IMG/VR virus record: IMGVR_UViG_3300017605_000068
Location: 1 to 21,426 of that record
DNA length: 21,426 nt
Reading direction: 5' to 3' (one strand)
Source: a virus
Shown here: positions 3,170 through 9,829 of the stretch, piece by piece
Layout of the letters: every line of letters begins with the position of its first letter
Numbering within the stretch: the stretch's first letter is position 1
Program-made: the position numbers and the translations under genes
The notes under the pieces: model-generated
The model's database searches: none
The model's input: only the letters and a program-made list of their open reading frames with translations
Told to the model about the DNA's origin: nothing

Positions 3170-3628
3170 ATGGCGACGCAGATATTCAACATCAAGACAG
3201 TTGAGAAGATTGTTGTTAAGGATCCTGGGGAGGCAAAGGGCAAGCACCGGCTGGAGTTCGTATTCAATATTGGAGATGTCAGACTAACTATAGGAGATAA
3301 CGCAATGGTGAACTTCACCAAGGTAGGACAGTTTGTAGAGTTTAGTATCACGATTCTCGATGGGAAGGGCCGTCCGGCACAGATTGATGGAGATATTTCC
3401 GTAACGAATTCGAATGAGATTGCTGGTGGGGTGTTCTTCGATCAGGTGACGCGAACCGGGAAACTGACTTGCCTGGATGAAGGGATCGGGCAGGTTGTGT
3501 TTCAGTGCGATGCGGATTTGGGCGGGGGCGTGAAGCCGTTGGCCGGGACACTGGACTTCACAGGTCCTAACTTGACTGAGGCGAGTGTGTTTACGGTTAC
3601 GGTTGGAGAGATTCAAGAGCCTGCTTAA
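3170..3628 (+). CDS. Ig-like beta-sandwich protein (152 residues)
   Basis: The start ATG 3170 has a GAGGG Shine-Dalgarno. The protein is rich in beta-strand patterns. After an N-terminal section (IFNIKTVEKIVVKD), a domain from about residue 48 reads GQFVEFSITILDGKGRPAQI, then ISVTNSNEI and GIGQVVFQCDADL, ending ASVFTVTVGE. This alternation and the 'change in constant x value' style of strands resemble bacterial Ig-like (Big-type) domains. It lies directly after the second zinc-ribbon/membrane pair and is followed by another beta-sandwich protein. A surface-decoration or adhesin role is inferred; no signal peptide is visible. Confidence 0.6.
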   Translation: MATQIFNIKTVEKIVVKDPGEAKGKHRLEFVFNIGDVRLTIGDNAMVNFTKVGQFVEFSITILDGKGRPAQIDGDISVTNSNEIAGGVFFDQVTRTGKLTCLDEGIGQVVFQCDADLGGGVKPLAGTLDFTGPNLTEASVFTVTVGEIQEPA

Positions 3629-4057
3629 GTGATTCTCCCTTCGGTGCTGCTTATGGTGAGTCTGTTACAGGGGGGTGCGGTTGATGACGCATCCTCTTGT
3701 GTGGGAAATTCCGGGTTGGGCGATTCGACGGTGCAGGCCGGGAGTGAAGTCAAGCTGTGCTGGAGCACTCAGGATGTCGAAGATGTTGGGAATCCGCAAA
3801 ACGGCGGGGTGTTCAAGTACTTCAGGCTGCGCAGGAGTCAGACTCCAGAGGGCAGTTGGGATGTTATTGTCTCAAAGCTCATGCGCGATCAGTGTTTCGA
3901 GCAGGATGATGTCATTTACGGAAGTTATAAGTATGTTGCCGATCGGACATATCACTTTTACGTCACGGCGATCTATGAATTGACGGATGAGGGCGGAGTT
4001 AAGCGGTTGTCTGAGACTCCTGGGAGTCAGCACGCACGAGTAACGGTTAAGCAGTGA
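3629..4057 (+). CDS. Fn3-like protein with possible signal peptide (142 residues)
   Basis: The GTG start at 3629 follows the upstream TAA without a gap; ATG 3653 is an alternative. The N-terminus ILPSVLLMVSLLQGGA is hydrophobic and could be a weak signal peptide, but it lacks the basic n-region. The body has a beta-sandwich pattern (EVKLCWSTQ, FKYFRLRRSQ, DVIVSKL, then YHFYVTAIYEL and HARVTVKQ) compatible with an Fn3-like fold. The YxFYVTA strand is shared with the protein at 2595. Three cysteines (SSC, KLC, DQC) are present. I treat it as the Fn3-like member of the second copy of the small-gene cassette. Confidence 0.6.
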   Translation: MILPSVLLMVSLLQGGAVDDASSCVGNSGLGDSTVQAGSEVKLCWSTQDVEDVGNPQNGGVFKYFRLRRSQTPEGSWDVIVSKLMRDQCFEQDDVIYGSYKYVADRTYHFYVTAIYELTDEGGVKRLSETPGSQHARVTVKQ

Positions 4058-4271: not shown

Positions 4272-6821
4272 ATGTCTGTTGCCCCACCTGAAAAGCGAAT
4301 TATCCGGTACGAAGCGACGCCCACGTTAGGGCGCTTCCATCGTAGCAATGCTTTTTACAGGAACATCATGGGGCCGGTTGGTAGCGGGAAGTCCAGCGGG
4401 TGCTGCAACGAGATTATGATGCGAGCACACGCGCAAAAGCCTGGTCCGAGAGGCAAGCGAAGGTCGAGATGGGCAGTAATTCGAAACTGCTACGACGCGC
4501 AGACAGAGATATTGACGGAAACAAGGGGTTGGCAACTGTTCAAGGATTTGGATCCCGAGGATAAGGTGGCAATGCTGGAAAACGGAGCGATGGTTTTCGC
4601 AAAGCCCACCTACTACTATCGGGCTCCTCATGATGGCGAGATGGTTGGTATCCGCTCTCAGAACGTCGACCTCTTTGTTACCCCCAATCATAAGCTCTGG
4701 GTCAGTGGCAGAAGGACTCGCAAAAAAGTTTGGTGTCGACATGAGTTTAAGAAGGCTGAAGAAATCTACGGGAGTGGTGAAGTCTGGCGCATGTCTTCGG
4801 AGTCGAAAGGTTGGCAGGGTGGGTCGACGCAGTTTAGCGAAGACTTCTTGGAGTTCTTGGGTTTCTGGTTCGCTGAAGGCTATGCTGGAGTCTATCAAAG
4901 AGCGGTTAGCGGCGGTCAGCATTACCGCTTGGTCGTAAGTCAAAAGAAGTATTGCCCGTATGTCCAAGAACTGCTGAAGCGTTGCGGTTTGCCTTATGGT
5001 CGACATGATAAGGGTGGAGGAAATTTCAACTATACCCTGTCGACTGCTGAGCCTGAGACTAAGGAACTGATTCATAAGCTGGCCGACTGTGGCAAGTCGA
5101 CAACAAAGAAGGTCCCAACGTGGATTAAGAATGCTCCGATCACGCATTTGAGGGCGTTTCTCCGTGGGCATCAGATGGGAGATGGGCGCTTTAAGACAGG
5201 TCCACACAGTTGCGATCAGCATGTTACGGCGTCGGTCGACCTGGCGAATGATCTTCAAGAGATGCTTGCAAAGACTGGCAAGGCGTCGACCGTCACTTAC
5301 AGCGGTGGCAGGTATGAAGTTACCGTGTCGACCAAGGAAAGATCGAATCCAGTCATTCAGAAACGACATTGGCGCAAAGAGAAATACACCGGATACGTTT
5401 ACTGCGTTGAGGTCCCAACACATATTGTCTATGTGAGGCGGAACGGGAAAGCTGTTTGGTGTTCTCAAACTTACGGGGAACTTAAGGATACGACTATCAG
5501 AACGTGGCTCGATTGGTTCCCAGAGGATGTGTATGGAAAATTCCACTGGACAGACTACGAGCACTATCTGGAGTTTAATGATATCGAGCTTGAAGTATGG
5601 TTTAGGGCCCTTGATCGGCCTGACCATGTTGCGAAAGTTCTCTCGATGGAAGTCACAGGAGCGTGGATCAACGAAGCGCGCGAAGTCCCGTACTCGATCG
5701 TCAAAGCGGTAGGTGATAGGGTTGGGCGATACCCGTCGAGGCGCGAGGAAGGGTGTTCGTGGCGTGGGGTGATTCAGGATACAAACCCTCCGGATACAGA
5801 CCATTGGTGGGCTGTGCTGGCGAATAAGGACAGAAGTACGGATTTTGGGCGCGATTTGCTGTCCTCAGTCGAGCAGTCGGAAGCGTTGATGAGGGAGCAA
5901 GGACAGACGGCGCCGATGTTTGAATTCTTCTCGCAACCTGGAGGCTTAATTGAAACAGGACTTGATGGAGAAGGTCGCCCTATCTTTGTACCTAACCCGC
6001 GAGCTGAGAATCTTAATAACCTCGAACCAGGCTATTACATTAGCCGAATGGCAGGCGCTACTGCCTCACATATCCGCGTCTATTACTGCGGAAATTACGG
6101 CTTCTCCTTCGACGGCAAACCAATCCTTCCGGAATATCGAGATCAAACCCACTGCGCCAAAGAACAGCTCAAACCCGTTCGTGGCATACCTATACAGTGG
6201 GGCGCAGACTTCGGGCTTACCCCCGCGATTGTTTTCGGACAGCGTTTCCCCAATGGACGAATAACCTGGGTTGACGAGCTGGTTGCTACGGATATGGGCT
6301 CGGAGAACTTCGCCAAGCTGTTTGTGCAGTATGTCAATGCAACGTTTGCGGGACATCGTTTTGCCGATGGGACAGGGGATCCAGCGGGCGAGCAGAGAGC
6401 GCAGACCGATGAGGCAACGCCATTTCAGATATTCAATCAAGTGCTGGAGCAATCAAGGATGCCGATTCGGCTGTATCCCGCGAGAACGAATGACTTCACT
6501 ATCAGGCGGGAAGCGATTGCGCACCCTTTAGGGAGATTGATTGACGGGGCGCCTGGGCTGCTGGTGAGTCCCAAGTGCGCGGTGACACGCAAGGGATTGC
6601 AAGGTGGGTACTGCTACAAGCGCATGAAGGTTTCTGGGGATGAGAAGTATCACGACAAGCCCGACAAGAACAAATTCTCGCATCCGGTCGAGGCTGGCGG
6701 GTACATGAATCTGGGGATGGGTGAAGGTGTCAGTCTGATTATCCCTGACATCAACGAAGAGGAAGAGGAAGGCACGCGGAAGCCTTGGGGTACGGGGCGA
6801 AGCGCGGTTTCAGGATACTAA
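4272..6821 (+). CDS. terL: Terminase large subunit (packaging ATPase/nuclease) containing an intein
   Basis: The 849-residue precursor splices to about 522 residues, a normal TerL size. The ATPase has Walker A GPVGSGKS (34-41). The adenine-motif region RN/TYGELKDTTIRTWLDWFP is interrupted by the intein between N72 and T400. Walker B is AWINEAREV (464-472) and the coupling motif is DTNPPD (503-508). The C-terminal RNase H-like nuclease is visible as GADFGLTPA (catalytic D646), GDPAG (D703) and SHPVEAGGY (E807 in the place of the usual third acid). It would cut concatemeric DNA and pump it through the portal at 6821. The Shine-Dalgarno is poor, so the start abutting the upstream TGA implies translational coupling. 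The stop overlaps the portal start (TAATG). Confidence 0.95.
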   Translation: MSVAPPEKRIIRYEATPTLGRFHRSNAFYRNIMGPVGSGKSSGCCNEIMMRAHAQKPGPRGKRRSRWAVIRNCYDAQTEILTETRGWQLFKDLDPEDKVAMLENGAMVFAKPTYYYRAPHDGEMVGIRSQNVDLFVTPNHKLWVSGRRTRKKVWCRHEFKKAEEIYGSGEVWRMSSESKGWQGGSTQFSEDFLEFLGFWFAEGYAGVYQRAVSGGQHYRLVVSQKKYCPYVQELLKRCGLPYGRHDKGGGNFNYTLSTAEPETKELIHKLADCGKSTTKKVPTWIKNAPITHLRAFLRGHQMGDGRFKTGPHSCDQHVTASVDLANDLQEMLAKTGKASTVTYSGGRYEVTVSTKERSNPVIQKRHWRKEKYTGYVYCVEVPTHIVYVRRNGKAVWCSQTYGELKDTTIRTWLDWFPEDVYGKFHWTDYEHYLEFNDIELEVWFRALDRPDHVAKVLSMEVTGAWINEAREVPYSIVKAVGDRVGRYPSRREEGCSWRGVIQDTNPPDTDHWWAVLANKDRSTDFGRDLLSSVEQSEALMREQGQTAPMFEFFSQPGGLIETGLDGEGRPIFVPNPRAENLNNLEPGYYISRMAGATASHIRVYYCGNYGFSFDGKPILPEYRDQTHCAKEQLKPVRGIPIQWGADFGLTPAIVFGQRFPNGRITWVDELVATDMGSENFAKLFVQYVNATFAGHRFADGTGDPAGEQRAQTDEATPFQIFNQVLEQSRMPIRLYPARTNDFTIRREAIAHPLGRLIDGAPGLLVSPKCAVTRKGLQGGYCYKRMKVSGDEKYHDKPDKNKFSHPVEAGGYMNLGMGEGVSLIIPDINEEEEEGTRKPWGTGRSAVSGY
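4488..5468 (+). other. Intein with LAGLIDADG homing endonuclease, inside terL
   Basis: Residues 73-399 (327 aa) interrupt TerL in frame. Splicing block A is CYDAQTEILTETRGW with nucleophile C73. Block B is LFVTPNH with T137 and H140. Block F is YVYCVEVPTHIVYVRRNG with H384. The C-terminal junction is WCSQ/T. The terminal residue is Gln399 instead of the common Asn, and the penultimate residue is Ser instead of His; the +1 extein nucleophile is T400. The two endonuclease helices are LGFWFAEG (196-203, acid E202) and FLRGHQMGDG (296-305, acid D304), so the homing nuclease looks intact. Removing it joins RN to TYGELKD, a normal TerL sequence. The DNA is unusually rich in GTCGAC. Confidence 0.93.
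4665..5332 (+). repeat. Cluster of nine GTCGAC hexamers
   Basis: GTCGAC occurs at 4665, 4735, 4823, 4999, 5039, 5096, 5235, 5285 and 5327, all inside the intein. They fall in all three codon phases (giving VD, GRH/CRH and ST), so protein sequence does not explain them. Reading every TCGA in the rest of the window I found no other GTCGAC, although GTCGAG, GTCGAT and GTCGAA are common. Confidence 0.75.
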
Positions 6822-8929
6822 TGGCAAGCACCTTACAACGGCTGGTCAACATTCTTCAAAGCACGTCGCTGATCGACGAGAAGTCGATTCAGGAAGATAA
6901 GGGCAAGATTGCGGCTCGCTGCTATGAAGAGTTCGAGATGGATTTGCGTTCTCGCGGAGAGTGGGAGCAGCAAAGCAAAGGTGCGCTGGAAATTGCCAAG
7001 CAGGTCTGGAGCAAGAAGACGGAGCCGTGGGATGGGGCGGCAAACGTCAAGTACCCGTTGATTGCAGGTGCGGCGGTGCAGTTCGGGGCAAGGGCGTATC
7101 CAGCGATTCTCTCAGGGCGAGATATTGTGCGCACGAAGATTGTTGGGCAAGATCCTGACGGCTCGAAGAGTGCGCGGGCGGCTCGTGTGCAGAAGCATAT
7201 GAATTATCAGTTGACGGAGCAGATTAAGGATTGGGATGAGGGCATGGACAAGCTGTTACATGGCTTACCAGTCCTCGGCACCATGTTCAAGAAAACTTAC
7301 TGGAGTAAGCTCCTTGAGCGTCCCGTAAGCGAATTGGTCCTCCCGCACGACTTGGTTGTTAATAATGATACGACGAAAGACATACTTGAAGCGCGACGGA
7401 TTACGCACATATTTGCGTTATTCAAGAATGAGATTATCGAACGGATGCGCTCGGGAATCTGGACAAAGGACGAAACGATTCTTGAGCGGCTGAATCCGAC
7501 TGGCACAGACGAGCAAGGGCCGTACACGGTTCTCGAACAGCATCGGTGGCTGGACCTGGATGATGATGGGTACGAAGAGCCTTACGCAGTCACGATGTTG
7601 CCGGGTATCGGCATGACTGACGGGGGTGTACATCAGTTTCAGGTGGGAGATATTGTGCGGATTGTCCCGCGATACTTCCCTGAAGACGTGGAATTGAACG
7701 AGGATGGCAAGATTAAGAAAATTAATCCGCAGTGTGCCTTCTCGAAGTACACGTTTATCCCTGATTTCTGCGGCAAGTTTTACGATGTTGGCTTTGGGCA
7801 GCTGTTGAATCCGCTGAATGAGGCGGTAAACGGGCTGATTAATCAGCTACTCGATGCTGGCACGCTGTCGAACATGCAATCTGGGTTCATTGCCAAGGGA
7901 TTGAAGGTCAAGGGCGGGGAAATGCGATTCTCCCCGGGTGAATTCAAGCAAGTCAACTCGTTGATGAACGATTTAAGGGGCTCGATCCTGCCATTGCCGT
8001 ACAAAGAGCCTTCTCCGACGCTGATGAACCTGCTTACGTTCCTGGTTGATGCGGGAAAGCAGCTGAGCTCGGTGTCTGAAGTGTTGTCGGGTGAGCAAAG
8101 CGGCGTGAATGTCCCGGCAACAACGACTCTCGCGCTGATCGAACAGGGCTTGAAGGTGTTTACAGCCATCAACAAGCGCGTGTATCGCGGCATGGCGTCT
8201 GAGTTCGAGATTATCTATTACCTCAATGCGCGCTATCTGTCTGATGCGGAATATTTCAAGATTCTGGACGAAGAAAACATCATTGCGCGTTCCGATTATG
8301 CGATGGGTGATTGCGATATTTACCCCGTTGCGGATCCGACGAATGCCACCAGTACGCAAAAGCTGATTAAGGCTGAAGCATTGATGAAAACAATGGGGAT
8401 GCCGGGGGCGGCTGATCCGAGAGCGATCTTGCACAAGTATTACGAGGCGCTGGAGATTGACGACTTAGAGAAATTCCACCCAGAGCAAGGCCCTGAACCT
8501 CCTCCCGATCCGAAAGCGGAAGACATCAAGTCGAGCATTCAAGAGCGGCAAGCGAAGTTACCGTATGAAATCGAGAAGCTCAGGACTGAGAGCATTAAGA
8601 ACATCGCGCTAGCCGAAGCCGCCGAGATAGGCCCGCAACTGGAGCAATACAAGCTGGCGTTGCAGTCGGTGTTGCAAGACAGGCAACAACGTGGCGATCA
8701 GGAGCTACAGCAGCAGCAGATGGATCAGCAGGCTCAGATGCAACAAGCGCAGATGATGCAGCAGCAACAAATGCAGCAGCAGGATCAAGGGCATCAAGCC
8801 GGGATGCAGCAGCAGCAGATGATGGCCGATCAGCAGGACGCGGATGCTACCCGCGAGCATGAGATGGGATTGGCGGGGATGGAAGCGGAAGCAGCGGCAC
8901 AGAACAACGATAGCGGTGTCGGTGCGTGA
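6821..8929 (+). CDS. Portal protein
   Basis: The start is ATG 6821, which shares a base with the TerL stop; the frame is open further upstream, but only inside terL. The 702-residue length and position right after TerL are those of a podovirus-type portal. Typical features are EPWDGAANVKYPLI near residue 70 (membrane-free helical wing start), GMDKLLHGLPVLGTMFKKTY, a central PLNEAVNGLINQLLDAG, and YKEPSPTLMNLLTFLVDAGK before the clip/crown. The portal forms a dodecameric ring at one capsid vertex, binding terminase on one side and the scaffold on the other. The last 80 residues are an extremely Gln- and Met-rich, probably coiled-coil or disordered, tail (about 626-673) that would form the internal crown or barrel. 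Confidence 0.92.
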   Translation: MASTLQRLVNILQSTSLIDEKSIQEDKGKIAARCYEEFEMDLRSRGEWEQQSKGALEIAKQVWSKKTEPWDGAANVKYPLIAGAAVQFGARAYPAILSGRDIVRTKIVGQDPDGSKSARAARVQKHMNYQLTEQIKDWDEGMDKLLHGLPVLGTMFKKTYWSKLLERPVSELVLPHDLVVNNDTTKDILEARRITHIFALFKNEIIERMRSGIWTKDETILERLNPTGTDEQGPYTVLEQHRWLDLDDDGYEEPYAVTMLPGIGMTDGGVHQFQVGDIVRIVPRYFPEDVELNEDGKIKKINPQCAFSKYTFIPDFCGKFYDVGFGQLLNPLNEAVNGLINQLLDAGTLSNMQSGFIAKGLKVKGGEMRFSPGEFKQVNSLMNDLRGSILPLPYKEPSPTLMNLLTFLVDAGKQLSSVSEVLSGEQSGVNVPATTTLALIEQGLKVFTAINKRVYRGMASEFEIIYYLNARYLSDAEYFKILDEENIIARSDYAMGDCDIYPVADPTNATSTQKLIKAEALMKTMGMPGAADPRAILHKYYEALEIDDLEKFHPEQGPEPPPDPKAEDIKSSIQERQAKLPYEIEKLRTESIKNIALAEAAEIGPQLEQYKLALQSVLQDRQQRGDQELQQQQMDQQAQMQQAQMMQQQQMQQQDQGHQAGMQQQQMMADQQDADATREHEMGLAGMEAEAAAQNNDSGVGA
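8706..8845 (+). repeat. CAG/CAA-rich low-complexity tract at the portal 3' end
   Basis: Imperfect runs of CAG, CAA and ATG codons encode the Gln/Met-rich portal tail (QQQQM, MQQAQMMQ, MQQQQMM). The units vary, so this is a degenerate repeat rather than a pure microsatellite. It could change length by slippage without altering the frame. Confidence 0.6.
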
Positions 8930-8942
8930 AGAAAGGAAAAGT

Positions 8943-9248
8943 ATGCTAGGTTTCGAGTGGGCATTAACTCAACTACGAAATGGGCATAAAGTCCAGCGTG
9001 GGGGATGGAATGGCAAGGATATGTATATTGCTCTTCAAGAAGGATACCCTAATGGCATACCAATTAACGCTAACACGGCTAAGGCTACGGGGCTTCCTCA
9101 AGGAACAGTATGCAAGTTCCTGCCGTATATCATGATGAAAACTTCCGACAAGGCCCCTTCATTTGTTCCGTGGTTGGCAAGTCAGACGGACATCTTAGCG
9201 TTAGATTGGGATTACTATATCGCTGCGCCATCGACGGCTAGTGCGTAA
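8943..9248 (+). CDS. DUF2829 protein, Tad2-like (possible anti-Thoeris)
   Basis: The start is ATG 8943 behind GAAAGGA; translation upstream would run into the portal end. The 101 residues show the family signature: FEWALTQLRNGHKVQRGGWNG (4-24), PYIMMKTSD (61-69) and VPWLASQTDILALDWDYY (75-92). DUF2829 includes Tad2, a phage protein that binds and sequesters the cyclic ADP-ribose-type signal of Thoeris defence, disabling the effector. Many DUF2829 members have not been tested, so an anti-defence function is inferred from family membership only. It sits among assembly genes between portal and co-chaperonin. The stop overlaps the next ATG (TAATG). Confidence 0.85.
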   Translation: MLGFEWALTQLRNGHKVQRGGWNGKDMYIALQEGYPNGIPINANTAKATGLPQGTVCKFLPYIMMKTSDKAPSFVPWLASQTDILALDWDYYIAAPSTASA

Positions 9249-9460: not shown

Positions 9461-9829
9461 ATGAATAAGGCAGTGCAAGCGGTTAGCGTAGACGATGCTT
9501 ACAAGATGCTAGAGCCTGCGGGGCATCGCATCATCGTTCGGCCTGACAAGATCGAGGAGAAGGTTGGAAGCCTTTACATTACCGAACAGGCGAAAGACAT
9601 GGAAGTCCGGGCTGCTTCGATGGGTGTGATTGTTGCCAAGGGCAAAAGTGCTTGGAAAGCATTTGACGATGGTGAGCCGTGGGCTTCGGTCGGTGACAGG
9701 GTGATGTTTGCTACCTATGCAGGACGGGATGTCCCAAAAGCCCTTGCCTATCGTGTAGCGCCGACTGCCGATCGGCTTGTTGTGCTGAATGATGAAGATA
9801 TTTTGATGATTGTGCGCGAGGAAAAATAA
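9461..9829 (+). CDS. GroES-like co-chaperonin
   Basis: The 122-residue protein has the Cpn10 barrel. LEPAGHRIIVRPDKIEEK (17-34) is the first strand region. GSLYITEQAKDMEVRA (36-51) corresponds to the mobile loop, with LYI as the hydrophobic tripeptide that docks on GroEL. MGVIVAKG (54-61) is followed by VGDRVMFATYAGRDV (77-91), and LVVLNDEDILMIV (106-118) is the closing strand. Phage GroES-like proteins (such as T4 gp31) replace host GroES so the host chaperonin folds the capsid protein. It lies upstream of the scaffold and coat genes, as that role predicts. A GGAGGAG Shine-Dalgarno precedes ATG 9461. Confidence 0.92.
   Translation: MNKAVQAVSVDDAYKMLEPAGHRIIVRPDKIEEKVGSLYITEQAKDMEVRAASMGVIVAKGKSAWKAFDDGEPWASVGDRVMFATYAGRDVPKALAYRVAPTADRLVVLNDEDILMIVREEK

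Follow-up and report, generated by a model that had tools for sequence, protein, structure and literature searches.

Nine clustered GTCGAC palindromes in the terminase intein of an uncultured phage: a candidate DNA-level array

The window analyzed here comprises a complete IMG/VR virus record of 21,426 bases. It encodes an HNH nuclease, the large terminase subunit (terL), a portal protein, a GroES-like protein, a capsid protein and tail proteins, a layout similar to that of Alcaligenes phage vB_Af_QDWS535 and of a Manatee Spring phage genome. Among the portal relatives listed, records are 40-65 kb in length; thus, about half of the phage genome probably lies outside the 21.4 kb record. The HNH nuclease gene (977-1420) is upstream of terL, and its product has a second match to a PHROG with the name terminase small subunit. 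By position, the ORFs at 3170-3628 and 3629-4057 are alternative candidates for the small terminase gene. The GroES-like co-chaperonin (9461-9829) is encoded in the structural module, in the same place as in QDWS535. A scan of 22 ORFs of the window, plus terL, identified no methyltransferase.

The terL gene (4272-6821, plus strand) is split by an intein directly after the residues VIRN. The N-terminal extein (4272-4487, plus strand) contains the P-loop GPVGSGKS, recognized by eye, and ends with WAVIRN; the C-terminal extein (5469-6821, plus strand) begins with TYGELKDTT. An antisense ORF of 492 aa (4326-5804, minus strand) is in register with terL and spans the intein, and a Pfam search with it gave no match. 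On the sense strand, the codons TTA, CTA and TCA together occur once vs 7.1 expected, and the single occurrence is probably the stop of this ORF.

The intein (4488-5468, plus strand; 981 bp, 327 aa) has the residues expected for splicing: Cys1, a TxxH block (TPNH, T65-H68), a terminal Q327 and Thr as the +1 residue of the extein. Its end (SQ) has Gln instead of the commoner Asn, with Ser as the penultimate residue. The LAGLIDADG motifs are FWFAEGY (E130) and MGDG (D232), and both acidic residues are invariant in eight aligned sequences (the alignment was made without the intein of locus L010, which has an in-frame stop). The Pfam match is LAGLIDADG_3. The predicted fold has a mean pLDDT of 78, with low values at residues 65-105. 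A Foldseek search with this fold returned the homing-endonuclease inteins PI-SceI, TliVMA and PI-PfuI, as well as I-DmoI, and because of these matches we consider the insert to be a normal intein with predicted activity. The splice-block residues, the two motifs and the fold together indicate a putative LAGLIDADG homing-endonuclease intein.

Relatives were sampled as the best 80 of 155 for the intein, the best 80 of 285 for TerL and the best 80 of 587 for the capsid. Nine related alleles (L005-L011, L093 and L094) have an insertion at the same site after VIRN, and each carries at most one GTCGAC. The L093 intein (8001-8966, 50% identity) is on a 195 kb contig binned as Nitrospira and that of L094 (8001-9017, 42% identity) on a 68 kb contig binned as Nitrosotalea. 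These bins span bacteria and archaea, and the contigs are proviruses or misbinned phages. The L010 intein (5454-6491) has its stop in the endonuclease domain, either from decay of the intein or from sequencing error. DNA methylase genes of mycobacteriophages (RedBird, Dorothy and ShiLan) match 98% of the intein length at 30% identity; inteins and puzzling insertions are described in this gene family (PMC9957025, PMC11855218). Phage TerL inteins are also known from mycobacteriophages (TerL1-a to -e, TerL6, Pham3880; PMC5050341). Like these, the intein described here is a predicted homing-endonuclease intein that interrupts the ATPase half of TerL.

The window contains nine copies of the hexamer GTCGAC, the SalI site, and all of them are within 668 bp of the 981-bp intein (4665-5332). 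Two sites encode Val-Asp (site 1, 4665-4670, V60 D61; site 7, 5235-5240, V250 D251) and two encode xRH (site 2, 4735-4740, C83 R84 H85; site 4, 4999-5004, G171 R172 H173). The other five encode xST (site 3, 4823-4828, G112 S113 T114; site 5, 5039-5044, L184 S185 T186; site 6, 5096-5101, K203 S204 T205; site 8, 5285-5290, A266 S267 T268; site 9, 5327-5332, V280 S281 T282). All three codon phases are occupied. There is no copy in the remaining 20.4 kb of the record. A first-pass annotation had reported these nine intein sites, in all phases, and had found none elsewhere by eye; the exact counts agree, with the absence valid for the 21.4 kb record only.

When counted against a Markov model, the total is ordinary for the window (9 vs 10.6 expected, or 5.9 from dinucleotide shuffles); it is the distribution that is anomalous. 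Among 2052 strand-merged hexamers, GTCGAC is the most enriched in the intein (binomial P 8.8e-13). The 5-mer GTCGA (1e-9) and the best 7-mers (4e-10) are both weaker, and we therefore take the unit to be exactly 6 bp. One-mismatch neighbors are not enriched (3 vs 5.2 expected), and HincII- or AccI-type variants account for none of them, so the specificity looks exact. A longer motif was rejected, as the 7-mers are weaker and the flanks are not conserved (mean identity 0.22). No helical phasing was detected in the spacing of the sites.

To place this cluster among others, we scanned 3.65 Mb of DNA in 228 pieces, the window among them and none shorter than 9 kb, for the best palindrome cluster in each, using 60 of the 64 palindromes and leaving out the four alternating AT or GC words. 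The -log10 P of the best cluster per piece has a median of 3.0 and a 99th percentile of 6.1, with 6.3 for the runner-up and 12.0 for the window. The earlier suggestion that the enrichment goes far beyond chance is supported.

Outside the intein, GTCGAC is absent where 4.6 (codon model) to 6.5 (Markov) copies are expected. TGATCA, CTCGAG and AGCGCT are likewise absent from this DNA (4.9 to 6.6 expected), and all 64 palindromes pooled number 177 vs 255 expected. One relative (L346) has no GTCGAC vs 7.6 expected and 371 palindromes vs 607, whereas another (L347) does not avoid the word (2 vs 2.1). Across 26 viral relatives of like GC, GTCGAC occurs 49 times vs 89 expected. The first-pass annotation had proposed that the genome avoids this palindrome under restriction pressure. 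The depletion is real, but it is ordinary palindrome avoidance, common to many palindromes.

Given the intein protein and phage codon usage, only 0.98 GTCGAC are expected, yet nine of the ten positions that could encode the word do so (P ~6e-10). Synonymous permutation of the intein gave a mean of 1.5 and a maximum of 7 copies, with none of 20,000 permutations reaching nine, and draws from phage codon usage also gave nine copies in 0 of 20,000. Codon bias as the cause was rejected: each of three shuffles, of 20,000 sequences, gave none with nine sites. The protein is also unusual: the window intein has ten GTCGAC-encodable positions, and ten related inteins have 0, 0, 0, 0, 0, 2, 2, 2, 2 and 7. 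The intein with seven (L011, 8001-8963) uses none of them, the opposite of the window intein. For the 20 residues that the sites encode, identity to seven relatives is 15-35%, vs 39-57% for other intein residues. The intein protein itself thus appears, from sequence comparison, to have been bent towards encoding GTCGAC, and it seems to be the DNA rather than the protein that was shaped to hold the word. A DNA-level cause, one of two possibilities raised in the first-pass annotation, is supported over a protein-level one by the codon tests, the divergent site residues and the control scan.

The array is not a conserved intein element. Of 88 related inteins, 76 lack GTCGAC altogether, ten have one copy and two have two. 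The first-pass annotation had considered that the sites might prove unconserved and be explained by codon bias in the source of the intein; the former is the case, and codon bias was rejected. In the first 15 of 69 literature matches, no title or opening of an abstract was relevant to over-represented GTCGAC in inteins. The array is thus a genuine and unusual feature that is specific to this lineage.

The closest parallel is the pac site of phage P1, which occupies 161 bp of pacA and contains seven TGATCA/G hexamers whose Dam methylation governs pacase action (PMC10028697). We used P1 as a yardstick for the same statistic (44.8 kb examined, with two 20-kb pieces scored for all palindromes), and the palindromic hexamer that ranks first there is TGATCA, clustered at pac in pacA. 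When TGATCG is counted as well, the pacA cluster has 11 sites in 683 bp (P 2e-8). Both phages have a dense cluster of an adenine-containing palindromic hexamer, spanning ~670-680 bp, in terminase coding sequence, and the window thus shows the clustering of a single short palindrome at a terminase gene that a P1-pac-like site would have. The two differ in the word, and the window array is in the intein of terL and has no counterpart in relatives. There are 43 TGATCR sites outside the P1 cluster in 44.8 kb and no GTCGAC elsewhere in the window record; TGATCA at P1 pac has a P about six log units above that of the window cluster. The array may be regarded as resembling P1 pac in scale and place, by analogy and not by membership.

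Our preferred reading, to which we assign a probability of roughly 0.35 from sequence evidence, is that the intein DNA may double as a lineage-specific, nine-site array for a factor that reads GTCGAC. Its most concrete version is P1-pac-like: a hexamer cluster of ~670 bp in the terminase gene at which the packaging or replication machinery would load in a methylation-dependent manner. An exactly read six-base palindrome is the signature of restriction-modification type specificity, and SalI-type methyltransferases modify adenine. The reader would most likely be an adenine methyltransferase of SalI specificity or, alternatively, a DNA-binding protein that depends on GTCGAC methylation. The sites may have been gained within the phage lineage, at variable positions of the intein, through selection on the DNA that would have overridden both codon choice and the residues that are tolerable. 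The absence of GTCGAC elsewhere would be due mainly to ordinary palindrome avoidance. Several points weigh against this reading. No relative shares the array, the scanned ORFs gave no methyltransferase, the flanks are not conserved, helical phasing was not detected, and P1, unlike the window, has many copies of its word outside the cluster. A dispensable, mobile intein is an odd home for an essential signal. In addition, among 40 relatives bearing terL or the intein (hand-picked loci in which terL or the intein had been located, nearly all at least 9 kb), the top palindrome cluster is near terL in five vs 9.0 expected, and this phage group thus shows no habit of terL-linked clusters. Such sites may differ between phages; the result lowers our confidence in the pac-like version.

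The main rival is extreme chance, in which the window holds the record cluster met in a wide scan and the sites arose by drift, without function, in a fast-diverging intein. Hexamer counts are over-dispersed, and a few words do beat the window: when alternating words are kept, an ATATAT run in L283 (11 copies in 82 bp) has P 1e-13, and in a scan of all hexamers across 109 loci, tandem-repeat words in L115 and L154 have a P below that of the window. The non-repeat word CAAAAC (L134) reaches 6e-12 in the same scan. Extrapolation of the control quantiles gives about one such palindrome cluster per several hundred thousand windows, and a very large scan could therefore meet one. The richness of the intein protein in ST pairs and the lack of conservation in the 88 related inteins are also compatible with drift. 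Against chance, the best other non-alternating palindrome in the 228 pieces falls short of the window by nearly six log units, and the residue-level and codon-level signals agree in direction. We consider chance doubtful, if still a serious contender.

Another DNA-level role, linked to the intein and not to packaging, draws on the same sequence evidence as the packaging-like array. The sites could form an operator or an array of the partition-like or nucleoid-protein kind, or could serve as a decoy to titrate a restriction or regulatory protein. That the cluster is wholly inside the intein fits such a role, given that placement of 668 bp within a 981-bp intein by chance has a probability of ~1.5%. 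However, the window yielded no candidate binding protein, regulators usually read sites longer than 6 bp, and a restriction decoy would open the phage to cleavage. Roles of this kind are in our view unlikely.

The intein could instead derive from a donor lineage in which methyltransferase-coupled repair bias raised GTCGAC before transfer to the phage. Highly iterated palindromes (HIPs) are tied to methyltransferases and may be a by-product of mismatch repair; they occur genome-wide at about one site per kb (PMC4390886). Like HIP1 and the exceptional cyanobacterial HIPs, the window sites are an exact palindrome enriched in coding DNA, of a kind attributed to methyltransferases. Inteins are mobile, and this one retains sites that the surrounding DNA avoids. 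The density is nevertheless 9.2 per kb in the intein, and classification of the window word as a HIP was rejected, with no copy in the other 20.4 kb. In a survey of 107 prokaryote genomes (one phylum plus six further genomes), the densest has 0.74 per kb, ~12 times less than the intein. The word is also missing from most relatives of the intein (76 of 88). A compositionally foreign origin was rejected: the intein does not stand out from the phage in codon usage, GC3 (0.56) or dinucleotide signature, with a dinucleotide distance of 0.058 that is exceeded by 34 of 42 chunks. Because the composition is native and no surveyed genome comes near 9.2 per kb, recent import from an unrelated genome, the other possibility raised in the first-pass annotation, is unlikely, and the DNA-signal reading is favored over it. 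A donor phage of similar composition could still have been the source. We regard a HIP-like donor as improbable.

An assembly or engineering artefact is hardly credible: the array is known from one metagenomic record, with no near-identical copy in a search of related loci that may omit records very near the window, but the ORF is intact, the intein blocks align by eye without site-associated indels, the composition is native and the fold prediction is fair (mean pLDDT 78).

Inteins are usually seen as parasites at the protein level, with DNA that is important at the homing site only. Under the preferred reading of a lineage-specific array, GTCGAC sites across three codon phases would show an intein gaining a further role at the level of DNA, and would suggest that a methyltransferase or packaging protein specific for GTCGAC acts in an uncultured phage. 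It is conceivable, but very improbable, that the intein brings its own packaging or replication-loading array, such that intein-bearing genomes are preferentially packaged or copied. If so, this would constitute a second, DNA-level drive beside homing, or would make the intein indispensable to the phage.

Clusters of a different palindrome, GCTAGC, were observed upstream of the terL match in two related contigs, with six copies in 647 bp of L017 (1317-1963; one elsewhere) and five in 179 bp of L018 (356-534; two elsewhere). These clusters are ~2.4-3.1 kb upstream of the match, and the two contigs possibly belong to the same phage group.
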